DNA from: a candidate division Zixibacteria bacterium SM23_81
GTDB taxonomy: Bacteria > SM23-81
Assembly (NCBI GenBank): GCA_001304015.1
Contig: LJUY01000068.1
Span: 1 to 12,003, forward strand
Direction: 5' to 3'
Length of the DNA: 12,003 nucleotides
In this document: positions 4,841-10,114 of the stretch, piece after piece
Numbering within the stretch: position 1 is the first letter of the stretch
How the letters are laid out: every line of letters starts with the position of its first letter
Notes under the pieces: model-generated
Databases searched by the model: none
The model's input: the letters and a program-made list of their open reading frames with translations, nothing else
What the model was told of the DNA's origin: nothing
Made by a program: the position numbers and the translations under genes

Positions 4841-7129
4841 ATGAATGTCGGGAAAGAGGCAACCATAACCCTCGTGATCTTCATCCTCTCTGCCGGATCA
4901 CTAAGGGCACCAGTATCTCAGGCGGATGAAAAATATCAACCCGTCTATAAGCCCACGCTCCAGGTCTCCCGAAAAGCAGGATCCGTCAAGATTGACGGCC
5001 AGCTGGACGATCCAGGCTGGGCGGGGGCTGCCAGGGCCGACAACTTCGCCGAGCACAATCCCGGCGATCAGACCAAACCTCCGGTGGACACCGAAGCGTT
5101 TATCACCTACGACGACGAACACCTCTACGTGGCCTTCATCTGCTACGACGACCCTAAGGATATCCGGGCTTCGTTCTGTGAACGGGAAGGTATTTATTCG
5201 GATGACTATATTGTTCTGTGCATTGACACCTATGATGAGGCCACCTGGGCCTACGAGCTCGCTGTCAATCCCCATGGGATTCAGGGAGATGTCCTGTGGA
5301 GCCGCAGCGGCGGAGAGGATGTAGGCTTTGATGTCATCTTTGAATCTGCTGGCAAGATCACCGATGGGGGTTACCAGGTTGAGATGGCCATTCCCTTCTC
5401 CAGCCTCAGGTTTCCCAACAGACCGGTTCAAACCTGGAAGATGGACTTCTGGCGGAACCATCCCCGTGATGACCGCGGTCAATACTCCTGGGCGGCCTAC
5501 GATCGCGATGATCCCTGCTGGCCGTGCCAGTGGGGGACGGTCACCGGGATCGAGAACGTGCAGCCGGGCAAGGGATTTGAGATCCTGCCCTCCTTGATCG
5601 GGTTCCAGAGCGGCGACCTCGACGGGGATGGCACCGTTGAGGCGCCCTACACATTCCAAAACGACGATCTTGACGGTGAGATCTCCATTGGCGCAAAATA
5701 TTCGCTCGCATCCGACGTCACCACCGAGCTCACTTACAATCCGGATTTCAGCCAGGTGGAGGCCGATCCCGCCCAGATCGACGTCAACACAAATTTGGCT
5801 CTGTGGTATGACGAGAGACGCCCATTCTTCCAGGAAGGCAGCGACCTGTTCCGCACCTGGTCAAACACCATCTATACCCGCTCGATCAATGACCCCCAAT
5901 TCGCCGGCAAGCTGACGGCCCGTTTCGACGGCACCAGCATCGCGTATCTGGCTGCCCTGGACGAAAACTCCCCCGTCATCCTGCCCCTGGAGGAGAGCAG
6001 CTCCGTGCTGCTGGCCGGAAAGAGCTTCTCGAATATCCTGCGGGCTCGAAAAAACCTGGGAGAGGACACCTATCTCGGCACCATCATCACCGACCGCCGC
6101 CTGGACGGCGGCGGATCCGGAACGGTGCTCAGCGCTGACGGGGAGATCCGGTTCTCTCAGAATTTCCGATTCCAATGGCAGGCCGCTGCCAGCCACACCG
6201 AGGAGCTCAACGACACCTCCCTGACCTCCGATCTGAGCGACAAGTACATCGACGCAAAGACATACACGGCAGCCTTCGACGGCGAGTCTTTTTGGGGCAC
6301 GGCTCTGATCGGCAATCTGGAGGAGCGCCACCGGCATTTCAATCTCGATCTCACCTATGTCCAGCTTAGTCCTACCTTTCGGTTAGACAACGGGTATCTG
6401 TCCCAGAACAACCGGCGGGAGCTCGGCCTGTACGCCGGATATACATTCTATTTCGAGGACCACCCGATCTTCAATTACATCCGGCCGTACATCTACCCGG
6501 GCATCGTCTGGAACTTCGACGGGCTGCGGAAGGATGGCTGGATGAGGCTGGAGTGCGACCTGTCGATGACGGGGCAGACCACGGTACACCTCTGCTTTCT
6601 GAGGAGCTCCGAACGGTTGGCCGGCATCAAATTCGAGGACATCTGGAGGTTTCATCTCTGTTGGAACAGCAAATTCAGCGACATGCTGGGAGTGAACGGC
6701 TCGATCAATTTCGGGCACCTCATCGCCCGTAATGAGGACCCTCCGGTCATGGGCAAGGAGCAGTTCCACGAGTTGGGACTGAGCTTCAAGCCCGCGGCCT
6801 GCCTGCGCATCGAGCCCGAGATCATGTACGACCGGAGCGTCCACCGGGGCACCGGCGAGGAGCTGTTCGCCGGTTTCATCACTCGAACGCGTTTGCAATA
6901 TCAGTTCAACCGCGAGCTGTCTCTACGGCTGGTGGTCCAGTACGACGACTTCGATAAAATCTGGGATGTCGACCCTCTGCTGACCTATCGCCTGAATCCC
7001 TTTACGCTGTTTTATGTCGGCACCACCTATGATTACGAGAAGCTGGCCATCGAAGAAAAGCAGGGCCGACATTGGAAGTTAAGCTCCCGTCAGTTCTTCC
7101 TCAAGCTGCAGTACTTATTTCAAATATAA
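4841..7129 (+). CDS. Exported CBM9-like / DUF5916 outer-membrane beta-barrel protein
   Basis: 762 residues, in the normal range for DUF5916 proteins. A Sec signal peptide is likely: Lys5, a hydrophobic core at 8-20, and a plausible cleavage after VSQA (25-28). Residues about 41-235 form the carbohydrate-binding family 9-like beta-sandwich: VKIDGQLDDPGW (49-60), FITYDDEHLYVAF (87-99), DDYIVLCIDTY (121-131) and VEMAIPFSSLRF (180-191). From about 243 to the end, alternating polar and aromatic strands with Asp/Asn-rich turns match the DUF5916 region, predicted to be an outer-membrane beta-barrel. The chain ends FLKLQYLFQI, close to the aromatic end typical of barrels, though the last residue is Ile. 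Function in this family is not established; glycan binding or uptake is a guess from the CBM9-like fold. AGGAG (4831-4835) supports ATG 4841. No TonB partner or glycosidase gene is adjacent. Confidence 0.87.
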   Translation: MNVGKEATITLVIFILSAGSLRAPVSQADEKYQPVYKPTLQVSRKAGSVKIDGQLDDPGWAGAARADNFAEHNPGDQTKPPVDTEAFITYDDEHLYVAFICYDDPKDIRASFCEREGIYSDDYIVLCIDTYDEATWAYELAVNPHGIQGDVLWSRSGGEDVGFDVIFESAGKITDGGYQVEMAIPFSSLRFPNRPVQTWKMDFWRNHPRDDRGQYSWAAYDRDDPCWPCQWGTVTGIENVQPGKGFEILPSLIGFQSGDLDGDGTVEAPYTFQNDDLDGEISIGAKYSLASDVTTELTYNPDFSQVEADPAQIDVNTNLALWYDERRPFFQEGSDLFRTWSNTIYTRSINDPQFAGKLTARFDGTSIAYLAALDENSPVILPLEESSSVLLAGKSFSNILRARKNLGEDTYLGTIITDRRLDGGGSGTVLSADGEIRFSQNFRFQWQAAASHTEELNDTSLTSDLSDKYIDAKTYTAAFDGESFWGTALIGNLEERHRHFNLDLTYVQLSPTFRLDNGYLSQNNRRELGLYAGYTFYFEDHPIFNYIRPYIYPGIVWNFDGLRKDGWMRLECDLSMTGQTTVHLCFLRSSERLAGIKFEDIWRFHLCWNSKFSDMLGVNGSINFGHLIARNEDPPVMGKEQFHELGLSFKPAACLRIEPEIMYDRSVHRGTGEELFAGFITRTRLQYQFNRELSLRLVVQYDDFDKIWDVDPLLTYRLNPFTLFYVGTTYDYEKLAIEEKQGRHWKLSSRQFFLKLQYLFQI

Positions 7130-7187
7130 TCATCCCTGCCCCCATAGCTTATCATGGCGTTGGGCTTTGCTCTGGGAGATCCGAAGC

Positions 7188-8042
7188 ATGACCATCACAG
7201 ACCTCATCAACCGCTCGATGCCCCCCAAGCCATGGGACGAGGGCGACAATATCCCCTGGGATGATCCCCAGTTAAGCGAGAGGATGCTGCAGGAGCATCT
7301 CTGCCAGGATCACGATGCCGCCAGCCGTCGTTTTGAAAAGATCGACCAGCACGTCGATTGGATTCATCAACATCTGTTGTCCTGCCAGCCCACACGCATT
7401 CATGATCTCTGCTGCGGGCCGGGTTTTTATACCAGCCGCCTGGCCAGACTGGGACATGAGTGCGTGGGCATCGATTATTCTCCCGCCTCCATAAGATATG
7501 CGATCGCACAGGCGTCGGAACAGAATCTATCTTGTCGATATTATCTCGGGGATATTCGCGGAGCCGATTATGGCACCAATTACGGATTGGCCATGCTAAT
7601 ATTCGGTGAATTCAATGTCTTTTCTCCTGAGGATGCCAAGCACATTCTCAAAAAAATCCTTGCGGCTTTGGCCCAAAATGGCCTTCTTTTACTTGAAGCT
7701 CACACCCTTGCTGCCGTCAGGAAAAAAGGGCAGGAGGAGAACTGCTGGCATTGCGTCGACCAAGGGCTTTTCTCTGATCATCCGTATCTTTTCCTCGAGG
7801 AAGGCTTTTGGGAACCTCAGGGGAAAACGACTACCAAGCGCTACTACATCATCGATGCCCGTACCGGCAAGGTTCAGCGCCATGCTCAGAGCTTGCAGGC
7901 TTATACAAAATCCGAGTATCGATCCATCCTCGAGGATCATGGTTTTGTCCATGTGGAATTTTTTCCTTCCCTCATCGGAGAAGAAGATGCATCCCAGAGC
8001 GACCTCATCGCCATAGTCGCCGCAAAGGAGGCTGGGAAATGA
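7188..8042 (+). CDS. Class I SAM-dependent methyltransferase, translationally coupled to sodN
   Basis: 284 residues from ATG 7188, preferred over the in-frame TTG 7167 because GGGAG (7174-7178) lies nine bases upstream. Motif I is IHDLCCGPGFYTSRLA (71-86), with Cys in place of the more usual Gly after DL. Asp96 in CVGIDYSPASIRYA binds the ribose, and GDIRGADYG follows at 121-129. The N-terminal 60 residues, PWDEGDNIPWDDPQLSERML and onward, are an extension seen in several uncharacterised methyltransferases. The substrate is unknown. The stop codon overlaps the start of the nickel superoxide dismutase gene as ATGA, so the two are probably translated together. Their functional link is not evident from sequence. 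Confidence 0.85.
   Translation: MTITDLINRSMPPKPWDEGDNIPWDDPQLSERMLQEHLCQDHDAASRRFEKIDQHVDWIHQHLLSCQPTRIHDLCCGPGFYTSRLARLGHECVGIDYSPASIRYAIAQASEQNLSCRYYLGDIRGADYGTNYGLAMLIFGEFNVFSPEDAKHILKKILAALAQNGLLLLEAHTLAAVRKKGQEENCWHCVDQGLFSDHPYLFLEEGFWEPQGKTTTKRYYIIDARTGKVQRHAQSLQAYTKSEYRSILEDHGFVHVEFFPSLIGEEDASQSDLIAIVAAKEAGK
8024..8031 (+). promoter_or_regulatory. Strong ribosome-binding site fixing the sodN start
   Basis: AAAGGAGG lies inside the last codons of the methyltransferase gene, seven bases before ATG 8039. It is close to the perfect anti-16S complement and decides the start of sodN, although the reading frame stays open far upstream (to 7808). Confidence 0.8.
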
Positions 8043-8542
8043 AAAAGTATGCCCTCATCTCCATCGTTCTCCCTGTTGTTTTGCTCATCGCCCCTGGTGT
8101 TTTTTCCCACTGTGAAATCCCCTGTGGCATCTACGGGGACGAAACCCGCTTCTATATTCTGGAAGAACATATCCAGACCATAGAGAAGTCCATGACCATG
8201 ATCATGGATCTGTCGGGAGAAGGAGAGAAGAACTACAATCAGCTGGTCCGCTGGATCGACAACAAGGAAACTCACGCGGGCTATTTTCAGGACATCGTCT
8301 CCCAGTACTTCATGACCCAGCGGGTCAAACCGATGGATCCCGAGGATGAGCAATATCAGAAATATCTGGAAAAGATCACGCTGCTCCACAAGATGCTCAT
8401 CGCCGCCATGAAAACAAAGCAAACCACTGATGTGGAGATCACAAAAGAGCTGAGATCTCTTTTGGACCGTTTCAGAATCGCCTATTTCGGTGCCGAGCGG
8501 GGAGAGCACCGACCGCCCCATGGAAACCATGAGCGCCATTGA
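8039..8542 (+). CDS. sodN: Nickel superoxide dismutase with Sec signal peptide
   Basis: 167 residues. Ni-SOD converts superoxide to oxygen and hydrogen peroxide at a nickel site built from the mature N-terminus. The nickel hook HCEIPCGIY (24-32) matches HCxxPCGxY: His24, Cys25 and Cys29 correspond to His1, Cys2 and Cys6 of the mature enzyme. Residues 1-23 form a Sec signal peptide (Lys2-Lys3, hydrophobic core 5-18) with Val21-Phe22-Ser23 just before the hook, so signal peptidase cleavage would directly free His1. The helical-bundle body is recognisable: EEHIQTIEKSM (42-52), QLVRWIDNKETHA (68-80) and IVSQYFMTQRVKP (86-98). The mature form would be about 144 residues, against about 117 in Streptomyces. 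Part of the excess is a C-terminal tail with four His in the last eleven residues. Predicted location is the periplasm. No nickel transporter or sodX-like peptidase gene is seen here. Confidence 0.93.
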   Translation: MKKYALISIVLPVVLLIAPGVFSHCEIPCGIYGDETRFYILEEHIQTIEKSMTMIMDLSGEGEKNYNQLVRWIDNKETHAGYFQDIVSQYFMTQRVKPMDPEDEQYQKYLEKITLLHKMLIAAMKTKQTTDVEITKELRSLLDRFRIAYFGAERGEHRPPHGNHERH

Positions 8543-8608: not shown

Positions 8609-10114
8609 ATGGAAAACAAACTGAAAAAGCTAAAGACACGCTTGATCGAAATCGATGACCTGCATGGTGCAGCAGCGCTGTTGTACTGGGACCAGGCGAC
8701 CTACATGCCGCCTGGCGGTGCCTCTGCTCGCGGGCGTCAGATGGCTACCCTGGAACGGCTGGCTCACGAGAAGTTCACCGATCCAGTCATCGGAAATCTG
8801 CTGGAAGAACTTCGCCCCTATGAGGAGAGCCTGTCTTACGACTCAAACGAGGCCAGCCTCATTCGCGTCACGCGGCGTGAATACGAAAAGGCCGTGAAGG
8901 TACCCCCAGCTTTCACCGAGAAGTTCTCTGTCCATTCATCTGCCTCATACGAAGTTTGGACGAACGCCCGACCGGCAAATGACTTCGCTGCGGTGCGTCC
9001 TTATCTCCAAAAAACCCTCGACCTGAGCCGACAACTGGCTGATTTCTTTCCGGGCTATGAGCACATCGCCGATCCACTCATCGACTTTGCGGACTACGGC
9101 ATGAAAGCCTCGACTTTGCGTAGCCTCTTTGATGAGCTTCGCAAGCAACTCGTCCCTATGGTTGAGGCACTCACCGCACAGCCGGCGGCGGATGACTCCT
9201 GTTTGCGCCAGACCTTTCCCGAAAAGCAACAGTTGGCCTTCGGCCTGGAGATCATCAAACGCTTGGGCTACGACTTCCAACGCGGCCGACAGGACAAGAC
9301 TCCCCACCCCTTCATGACGAAGTTCTCCCTGGGAGACGTGCGCATCACCACTCGCGTCCAGGAGAACGACCTTCGCGAGGCCCTGTTCGGGGCGATGCAC
9401 GAGGCCGGCCACGCGCTATACGAACAGGGCATCTGTGAAGAATTTGAGGGCACACCGCTGGCAGATGGGGCATCCGCAGGCGTCCACGAGAGTCAGTCCC
9501 GTCTGTGGGAAAACCTCGTGGGTCGGAGCCGGGCTTTCTGGCAGTTTTTCTACACCAAACTTCAGGATGTGTTTCCAGATCAACTGAAAGCGGTTTCTCT
9601 GGAAACGTTCTATCGGGCCATCAACAAAGTGGAACGTTCTCTGATTCGCACGGCCGCCGACGAGGTGACCTACAATCTACACGTCATGATTCGCTTTGGG
9701 CTGGAGCTGGAGCTGTTGGAGGGCAATTTGACCGTGGCCGATCTCCCCGACGCTTGGCGCGAGCGTTATCGGAGGAACCTGGGCATCGCATCGGAGAACG
9801 ACCGAGATGGCGTGATGCAGGACATGCACTGGTTCAGCAGCACCATCGGGGGAAAATTCCAGGGTTACACCCTCGGCAACATCATGGGCGCCCAGTTCTA
9901 CGAAGTCGCGCTCCGAGCCCACCCCGAGATCCTAGACGAAATGAAAGGAGGCCAATTCGGCACTTTGCTCAACTGGTTGAAAGAAAACATATATCAGCAC
10001 GGTTATAAGTACACAGCGGCTGAGCTCGTCGAGCGGATTACCGGCGGGCCGCTGCGCATCGAGCCTTACGTCCATTACCTGGGGAAGAAGTTCGGCGAGC
10101 TGTACCGTTTATGA
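8609..10114 (+). CDS. M32 family metallocarboxypeptidase (carboxypeptidase Taq-like)
   Basis: 501 residues, the standard full length of family M32. All five family signatures are present in order: HPF, then DVRIT in GDVRITTR, the zinc site HEAGH (264-268, with Glu265 as catalytic base), HESQ (293-296, with Glu294 as third zinc ligand), and IRTAADEVTYNLH. The N-terminal LYWDQATYMPPGGASARGRQ (25-44) is also typical. These enzymes remove C-terminal amino acids from peptides, with broad specificity excluding proline, and act in the cytoplasm; no signal peptide is seen. TGGAG (8596-8600) supports ATG 8609. The gene follows sodN by 66 bases and is followed by amino-acid enzymes, consistent with a role in peptide turnover. 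Confidence 0.95.
   Translation: MENKLKKLKTRLIEIDDLHGAAALLYWDQATYMPPGGASARGRQMATLERLAHEKFTDPVIGNLLEELRPYEESLSYDSNEASLIRVTRREYEKAVKVPPAFTEKFSVHSSASYEVWTNARPANDFAAVRPYLQKTLDLSRQLADFFPGYEHIADPLIDFADYGMKASTLRSLFDELRKQLVPMVEALTAQPAADDSCLRQTFPEKQQLAFGLEIIKRLGYDFQRGRQDKTPHPFMTKFSLGDVRITTRVQENDLREALFGAMHEAGHALYEQGICEEFEGTPLADGASAGVHESQSRLWENLVGRSRAFWQFFYTKLQDVFPDQLKAVSLETFYRAINKVERSLIRTAADEVTYNLHVMIRFGLELELLEGNLTVADLPDAWRERYRRNLGIASENDRDGVMQDMHWFSSTIGGKFQGYTLGNIMGAQFYEVALRAHPEILDEMKGGQFGTLLNWLKENIYQHGYKYTAAELVERITGGPLRIEPYVHYLGKKFGELYRL

Follow-up and report, generated by a model that had tools for sequence, protein, structure and literature searches.

How the N-terminal histidine of a nickel superoxide dismutase (Ni-SOD) is set free is the question raised by the gene at positions 8039–8542 of the window, the 12,003-nucleotide stretch of DNA that was analysed as a whole. 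According to textbooks, a Ni-SOD becomes active only through the action of a dedicated peptidase. Our preferred reading, to which we give a probability of roughly 0.8, is that this gene encodes an exported Ni-dependent SOD of a SodX-independent class, which would be matured by the housekeeping signal peptidase LepB and would acquire its nickel outside the cytoplasm. We infer the cut, the compartment, the metal, its loading and the enzymatic activity from the lines of evidence set out below.

The gene and its leader

The open reading frame 8039–8542 lies on the forward strand and specifies 167 amino acids, reading MKKYALISIVLPVVLLIAPGVFS followed directly by HCEIPCGIYGDETRF... The frame is open beyond the ATG at 8039, up to a TTG at 7808. 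The ATG is well supported as the start because a Shine-Dalgarno-like AGGAGG, read directly at 8026–8031 on the same strand and 7 bases before it, is combined with an ATGA overlap with the upstream stop codon. The upstream gene (7167–8042, forward strand) encodes a SAM-dependent methyltransferase and shares 4 bases with the start of sodN. The two genes may be translationally coupled, their functions being unrelated, and a methyltransferase is absent from the common neighbours of the relatives' Ni-SOD genes.

The original prediction that the gene encodes a Ni-SOD is borne out by Pfam Sod_Ni (PF09055), which matches the product with 95.9 bits (E 3.4e-27, cut-off 25). The NCBIfam sodN equivalog model TIGR02753 gives just 35.8 bits, below its 90-bit cut-off, and these two scores mark the protein as a divergent Ni-SOD. 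A profile search of its genome found no second Sod_Ni gene, and none was detected in the other three of the four genomes searched from the phylum.

The first 23 residues (8039–8107, forward strand) are a predicted Sec-type signal peptide, as judged from sequence, hydropathy and the leaders of relatives. The nickel hook HCEIPCGIY, with His1, Cys2 and Cys6 as ligands and Glu at position 3 (hence E/Q-type), occupies 8108–8134 on the same strand and is followed by 135 more residues to the end of the protein. The whole mature domain (8108–8539, forward strand) comprises 144 amino acids, is predicted from Pfam, AlphaFold2 and a fold match to be a four-helix Ni-SOD bundle, and has no cysteine besides the two of the hook. 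It had been claimed that a 23-residue leader with Val at −3 and Ser at −1 ends right at the hook, and the residues do read VFS and then HCEIPCGIY.

The leader has a basic n-region (KK, in MKK), a hydrophobic core and a c-region PGVFS with small residues at −3 and −1 (V/S), the features expected of a Sec substrate of signal peptidase I (SPase I). Its best 9-residue Kyte–Doolittle mean is 3.49, whereas no SodX-type propeptide in the comparison exceeds 1.89. Two other export routes were considered and rejected: a lipoprotein signal, since a lipobox is absent and His separates the −1 Ser from the Cys, and the Tat pathway, there being no RR in MKKYALIS.

Two classes of Ni-SOD and the occurrence of SodX

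A whole-protein scan of one genome per species, made without the hook pattern, returned 35 relatives that are 40–56% identical to the window protein. They come from Calditrichota, Thermodesulfobacteriota, Latescibacterota, Omnitrophota, Aminicenantes, KSB1, Planctomycetota, Dadabacteria, Ignavibacteriota and Bacteroidota, with one further member in an Alphaproteobacteria MAG. The hydrophobic stretch terminates at HC[EQ][IV]PCG in all 35. An extra E/Q-type member is carried on a plasmid of the Fusobacteriota species Ilyobacter polytropus DSM 2926 (WP_013389192.1), where the leader MNKLVLILSLLILIPNYLFA is followed by HCEVPCGIY. E/Q-type Ni-SODs thus appear in about 12 phyla; single assignments may be wrong, most being MAGs, while the spread is not in doubt.

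Sod_Ni is present in 55 of 392 Planctomycetota genomes, and two kinds of gene were found in this phylum. Fourteen are D-type, with the hook HCD[GI]PCG and polar propeptides of 9–20 residues. The other 43 are E/Q-type and mostly have a Sec-like leader that ends at the hook, the exception being a small subclade with a spacer; two of the 43 were already among the 35 relatives, and matches truncated at the end of a contig were left unclassified. In Thermodesulfobacteriota there are 19 E/Q-type genes, with leaders that run up to the hook, besides a single D-type gene (G455). Hook residue 3 (Asp versus Glu/Gln) tracked the class in every sequence classified. A tree of the mature domain (91 rows, 140 columns, root not known) separates E/Q from D by one change, with an SH-aLRT of 99. 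On sequence grounds, then, the Ni-SODs sampled fall into two clades, D-type with the hook HCD..PC and a short polar propeptide, and E/Q-type with the hook HC[EQ][IVL]PCG and a Sec-like leader. Since the tree shows a single split, SodX dependence would have changed once, deep in the family, jointly with the leader and with residue 3 of the hook.

The leaders themselves differ in character. The best 9-residue hydropathy averages 2.84 in the E/Q-type (n = 78) versus 0.67 in the D-type (n = 15), and the mean number of acidic residues within the final 18 leader positions is 0.35 versus 1.87. Start codons were assigned by rule (an ATG with a Shine-Dalgarno sequence), and the E/Q hydrophobicity is understated for L025, L033, L034 and L143 because the rule chose starts that were too short. 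The −3/−1 rule (A, S or G at −1 and a permitted −3 residue) is obeyed by 70 of the 78 E/Q-type leaders. As proof of SPase I cleavage the rule was set aside as non-diagnostic, since D-type propeptides likewise end in A/V-x-A, in 15 of 15 cases. The argument made earlier from Val −3 and Ser −1 is therefore correct as to the residues and proves little by itself. Similar −3/−1 residues in both leader classes are to be expected because SodX belongs to signal peptidase family S26. It is the hydrophobic core, rather than these residues, that tells the two leader classes apart.

It is improbable that the leader is an uncut anchor or is cut elsewhere (for example after Gly20, between APG and V), in which case the hook would keep extra residues and there would be either no working Ni-SOD or a need for a second trimming protease. 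The −1 and −3 residues before His1 fit SPase I in the window protein as well as in the 70 E/Q-type leaders just mentioned, and such a reading leaves unexplained why the leaders stop exactly at the hook in every one of the relatives collected without the pattern. What speaks for it is the Planctomycetota spacer subclade with its F, R, W or L at −1. In this subclade (L134, L137, L138, L142, L144 and L145) a signal-like stretch is followed by a spacer and then by one of these residues before His1; because SPase I alone could not free His1 there, these proteins would need a second protease or another solution. A separate peculiarity is seen in L147 (G043), an E/Q-type Ni-SOD with about 300 more in-frame residues, which may thus be fused to a further domain.

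The distribution of SodX was followed with TIGR02754 (cut-off 63.25 bits). No sodX was found inside the window, as the original prediction had said, and the same holds for the genome as a whole, which is 92.6% complete: nothing scores above the curated cut-off, and the best match, 18.9 bits, falls on the lepB gene. That gene encodes the sole S26 peptidase found in the genome (Peptidase_S26, 177 bits), a canonical LepB with the motifs IPSGSMEDTL and KRCVAIEGQ. SodX above the cut-off is likewise absent from the 34 genomes of relatives, from 40 E/Q-only Planctomycetota genomes and from the 19 Thermodesulfobacteriota with E/Q-type genes, and no adjacent match was seen for any of 62 E/Q-type genes, 43 of them from Planctomycetota.

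The D-type genes served as a positive control. Nine of the 55 Planctomycetota genomes with Sod_Ni exceed the TIGR02754 cut-off, all of them D-type and with the match beside sodN. Four more D-type genes of this phylum adjoin weaker matches (34–46 bits); the last of the fourteen is situated where its contig ends. The Thermodesulfobacteriota D-type gene is followed about 140 bases downstream by a SodX-like frame of 104 residues (54.3 bits, below cut-off). An adjacent TIGR02754 match thus accompanies 14 of the 15 sampled D-type genes, five of these matches being below the cut-off. Inspection by eye also revealed SodX-like frames close to the D-type genes of Nonomuraea and Novosphingobium. For Planctomycetota, a Fisher test of adjacent SodX match against class gives 5.7e-12, a value that overstates the weight of the association because the link between leader and SodX goes back to a single deep split and so to one evolutionary event. 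Three Planctomycetota genomes, G135 (L075/L148), G204 (L071/L132) and G226 (L072/L149), hold both classes, and in each a SodX match adjoins the D copy and none lies by the E/Q copy. These pairs look as if each enzyme served one compartment.

The E/Q genomes do contain weak TIGR02754 matches of up to 39 bits, which are distant from the Ni-SOD gene or on a different contig and mostly fall in longer open frames; they were taken for ordinary signal peptidases as a group rather than one by one. That a SodX is hidden in an assembly gap of the window's genome is unlikely, given the absence across the class. These observations bear on the possibility that, as in Streptomyces, a SodX-like peptidase removes the leader in the cytoplasm or at the inner face of the membrane, and that this peptidase went unrecognised or falls in an unassembled part of the genome. 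The likeness of the cut sites, with A/V-x-A at the end of the D-type propeptides, and the incompleteness of the genome are compatible with this idea. We regard it as very improbable, since the one S26 peptidase of the genome is an ordinary LepB, the E/Q-only genomes lack SodX over the cut-off or adjacent to the gene where the same search finds it by D-type genes, and the core of the window leader is far more hydrophobic than that of every SodX-type propeptide compared.

Hook, fold and genomic surroundings

H1, C2, P5, C6 and G7 of the hook are identical across the 78 E/Q-type and 15 D-type genes, which were chosen by the pattern HC..PCG, so that only the neighbouring positions test conservation independently; Tyr9 is Tyr in 71 of the 78 E/Q-type sequences. 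Outside the hook, R48, K53, A57 and H94 of the mature protein are invariant in the alignment. M101, K102, K104 and Q105 are nearly so, and the motif MKTKQ that contains them (mature residues 101–105) corresponds to positions 8408–8422 of the window.

AlphaFold2 was used to model the mature part from 58 sequences (the window protein and fetched loci, with two plasmid sequences left out). The model has four helices and a mean pLDDT of 89.6, but confidence is low in the hook, where residues 1–10 average 61. In a Foldseek search NiSOD was the best match, with a probability of 1.00 in the first fifteen rows and a TM-score by target of up to 0.84; the E-values were modest, 7e-3 at best. Alignment of the model to 1q0d with VIA-align gave a Z of 14.4 and 2.3 Å over 114 residues, and seven NiSOD entries head the ranking (Z 13.7–14.4), the next fold reaching 12.4. 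A phmmer search with the single window sequence against solved structures gave an insignificant match to NiSOD (E 0.5). The model supports, rather than proves, a NiSOD four-helix fold for the mature part, as helical bundles often score high.

Among 89 co-directional close neighbours of the relatives' E/Q-type genes there are 15 matches to Rubrerythrin, 7 to Ferritin, 5 to ODP/flavodiiron, 4 to AhpC/TSA and 3 to Desulfoferrodoxin; these are raw counts without a background rate, the families overlap, and part of them comes from closely related loci. The window's own neighbours, the methyltransferase and an M32 carboxypeptidase Taq, fall outside this oxygen-defence theme. The carboxypeptidase gene lies downstream (8609–10114, forward strand; Pfam PF02074, 549 bits). 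It was considered as a maturase and rejected: such enzymes act on C-termini, and no neighbour of this kind stood out by the relatives. Further upstream, positions 4841–7129 encode a secreted-looking protein of 762 amino acids that carries a CBM9-like domain and matches DUF5916 in part.

Elsewhere in the genome, a search with family profiles found neither Fe/Mn-SOD nor CuZn-SOD. A superoxide reductase of the desulfoferrodoxin type, without a leader, is encoded on contig C36 (locus L155) in a row of catalase-like, superoxide reductase, ferritin-like and rubrerythrin-like genes, all but the superoxide reductase being named by eye. The row is of the kind seen in the cytoplasmic oxygen defence of anaerobes.

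It is conceivable, if improbable, that the hook binds another metal such as copper outside the cytoplasm, so that the Ni-SOD fold would have been retained in a protein with a metal-binding or different redox function. The exchange of Asp3 for Glu or Gln points this way, as do the identity of the window protein to D-type proteins, which is 21–23%, and the copper binding of other secreted proteins with an N-terminal His, reported in the accessible text of PMC12537917. Against it stand the retention of all hook ligands together with Pro5 and Gly7, the preference for Tyr9, the best fold match being NiSOD and the location of several relatives among genes for defence against reactive oxygen.

Proposed maturation route and comparison with known systems

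In the route that we favour, Sec would carry the precursor across the membrane and LepB would cleave behind Ser23. The cut would free the α-amino group and the imidazole of His24 (His1 of the mature protein), completing the hook His1-Cys2-Cys6, which would take up nickel outside the cytoplasm. The protein would then assemble as a helical-bundle enzyme that removes periplasmic superoxide, cytoplasmic superoxide being handled by the genome's superoxide reductase. It had been proposed for this locus that export and maturation are one step carried out by SPase I, and the conserved E/Q leaders, which are hydrophobic and directly precede His1 in most of the 78 sequences, the single LepB and the lack of SodX in E/Q-only genomes support such a cleavage. 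Moreover, leaders that end at the hook characterise a widespread class as a whole and not the window locus alone. Counting against this explanation are the change of Asp3 to Glu or Gln, the score below the TIGR02753 cut-off and the spacer subclade, which is beyond SPase I alone.

A signal peptide that ends at His1 of a Ni-SOD is already known and thus not wholly new. The Ni-SOD of Roseiconus lacunae (WP_230780104.1) is described in the accessible text of PMC12537917 (2025) as having the signal peptide MTRLLTATLALMFTASIASA and then directly His, and a search with this signal peptide plus His as bait retrieved many Ni-SODs. In that text the protein serves only as bait for other metalloproteins with an N-terminal His, without an analysis of SodX or of the enzyme and how it matures. 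No paper in the open-licence literature was found to describe these Ni-SODs as a clade of their own that is without SodX and has a different residue at position 3 of the hook.

If the favoured route is correct, nickel insertion moves to the periplasm, and anaerobes gain a SOD outside the cytoplasm beside a superoxide reductase inside it. In ten cyanobacteria, the absence of sodX has been taken as a possible loss of sodN function (PMC8346466). A class matured by a housekeeping peptidase would reverse this inference for E/Q-type genes, as an absent sodX need not mean lost function where the leader of the Ni-SOD is a signal peptide. A bolder reading, which we hold only tentatively and think less likely to be right than wrong, is that there are two ancient classes of Ni-SOD: an exported one, matured by SPase I, loaded with nickel outside and widespread in anaerobes, and a cytoplasmic one in which SodX cuts a worn-down signal peptide that has kept its A/V-x-A end. 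On this view a signal peptidase would have been co-opted as SodX once the enzyme became cytoplasmic; the direction of this change is not fixed by the unrooted tree.

The closest known system is the SodN of Streptomyces and cyanobacteria (TIGR02753) with its SodX (TIGR02754). It shares with the window protein the Sod_Ni domain, the hook H-C-x-x-P-C-G-x-Y and the need for a free His1, and the predicted helical bundle of the window protein matches its structures 1q0d and 1t6u. It has a short polar propeptide, SodX and Asp3, whereas the window protein has a hydrophobic Sec-type leader, no SodX and membership of the Glu/Gln3 class. The ubiquitin–NiSOD fusions of marine algae (PMC6332867) resemble the window protein in that their Ni-SOD is preceded by something different from a SodX-type propeptide, and removal of the ubiquitin would free His1; they differ in being eukaryotic ubiquitin fusions without a secretion signal. 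Finally, the periplasmic CuZn-SOD (SodC) is likewise exported against superoxide outside the cytoplasm, the function that the window protein would have, but its fold and metals are unrelated to those of the window protein.
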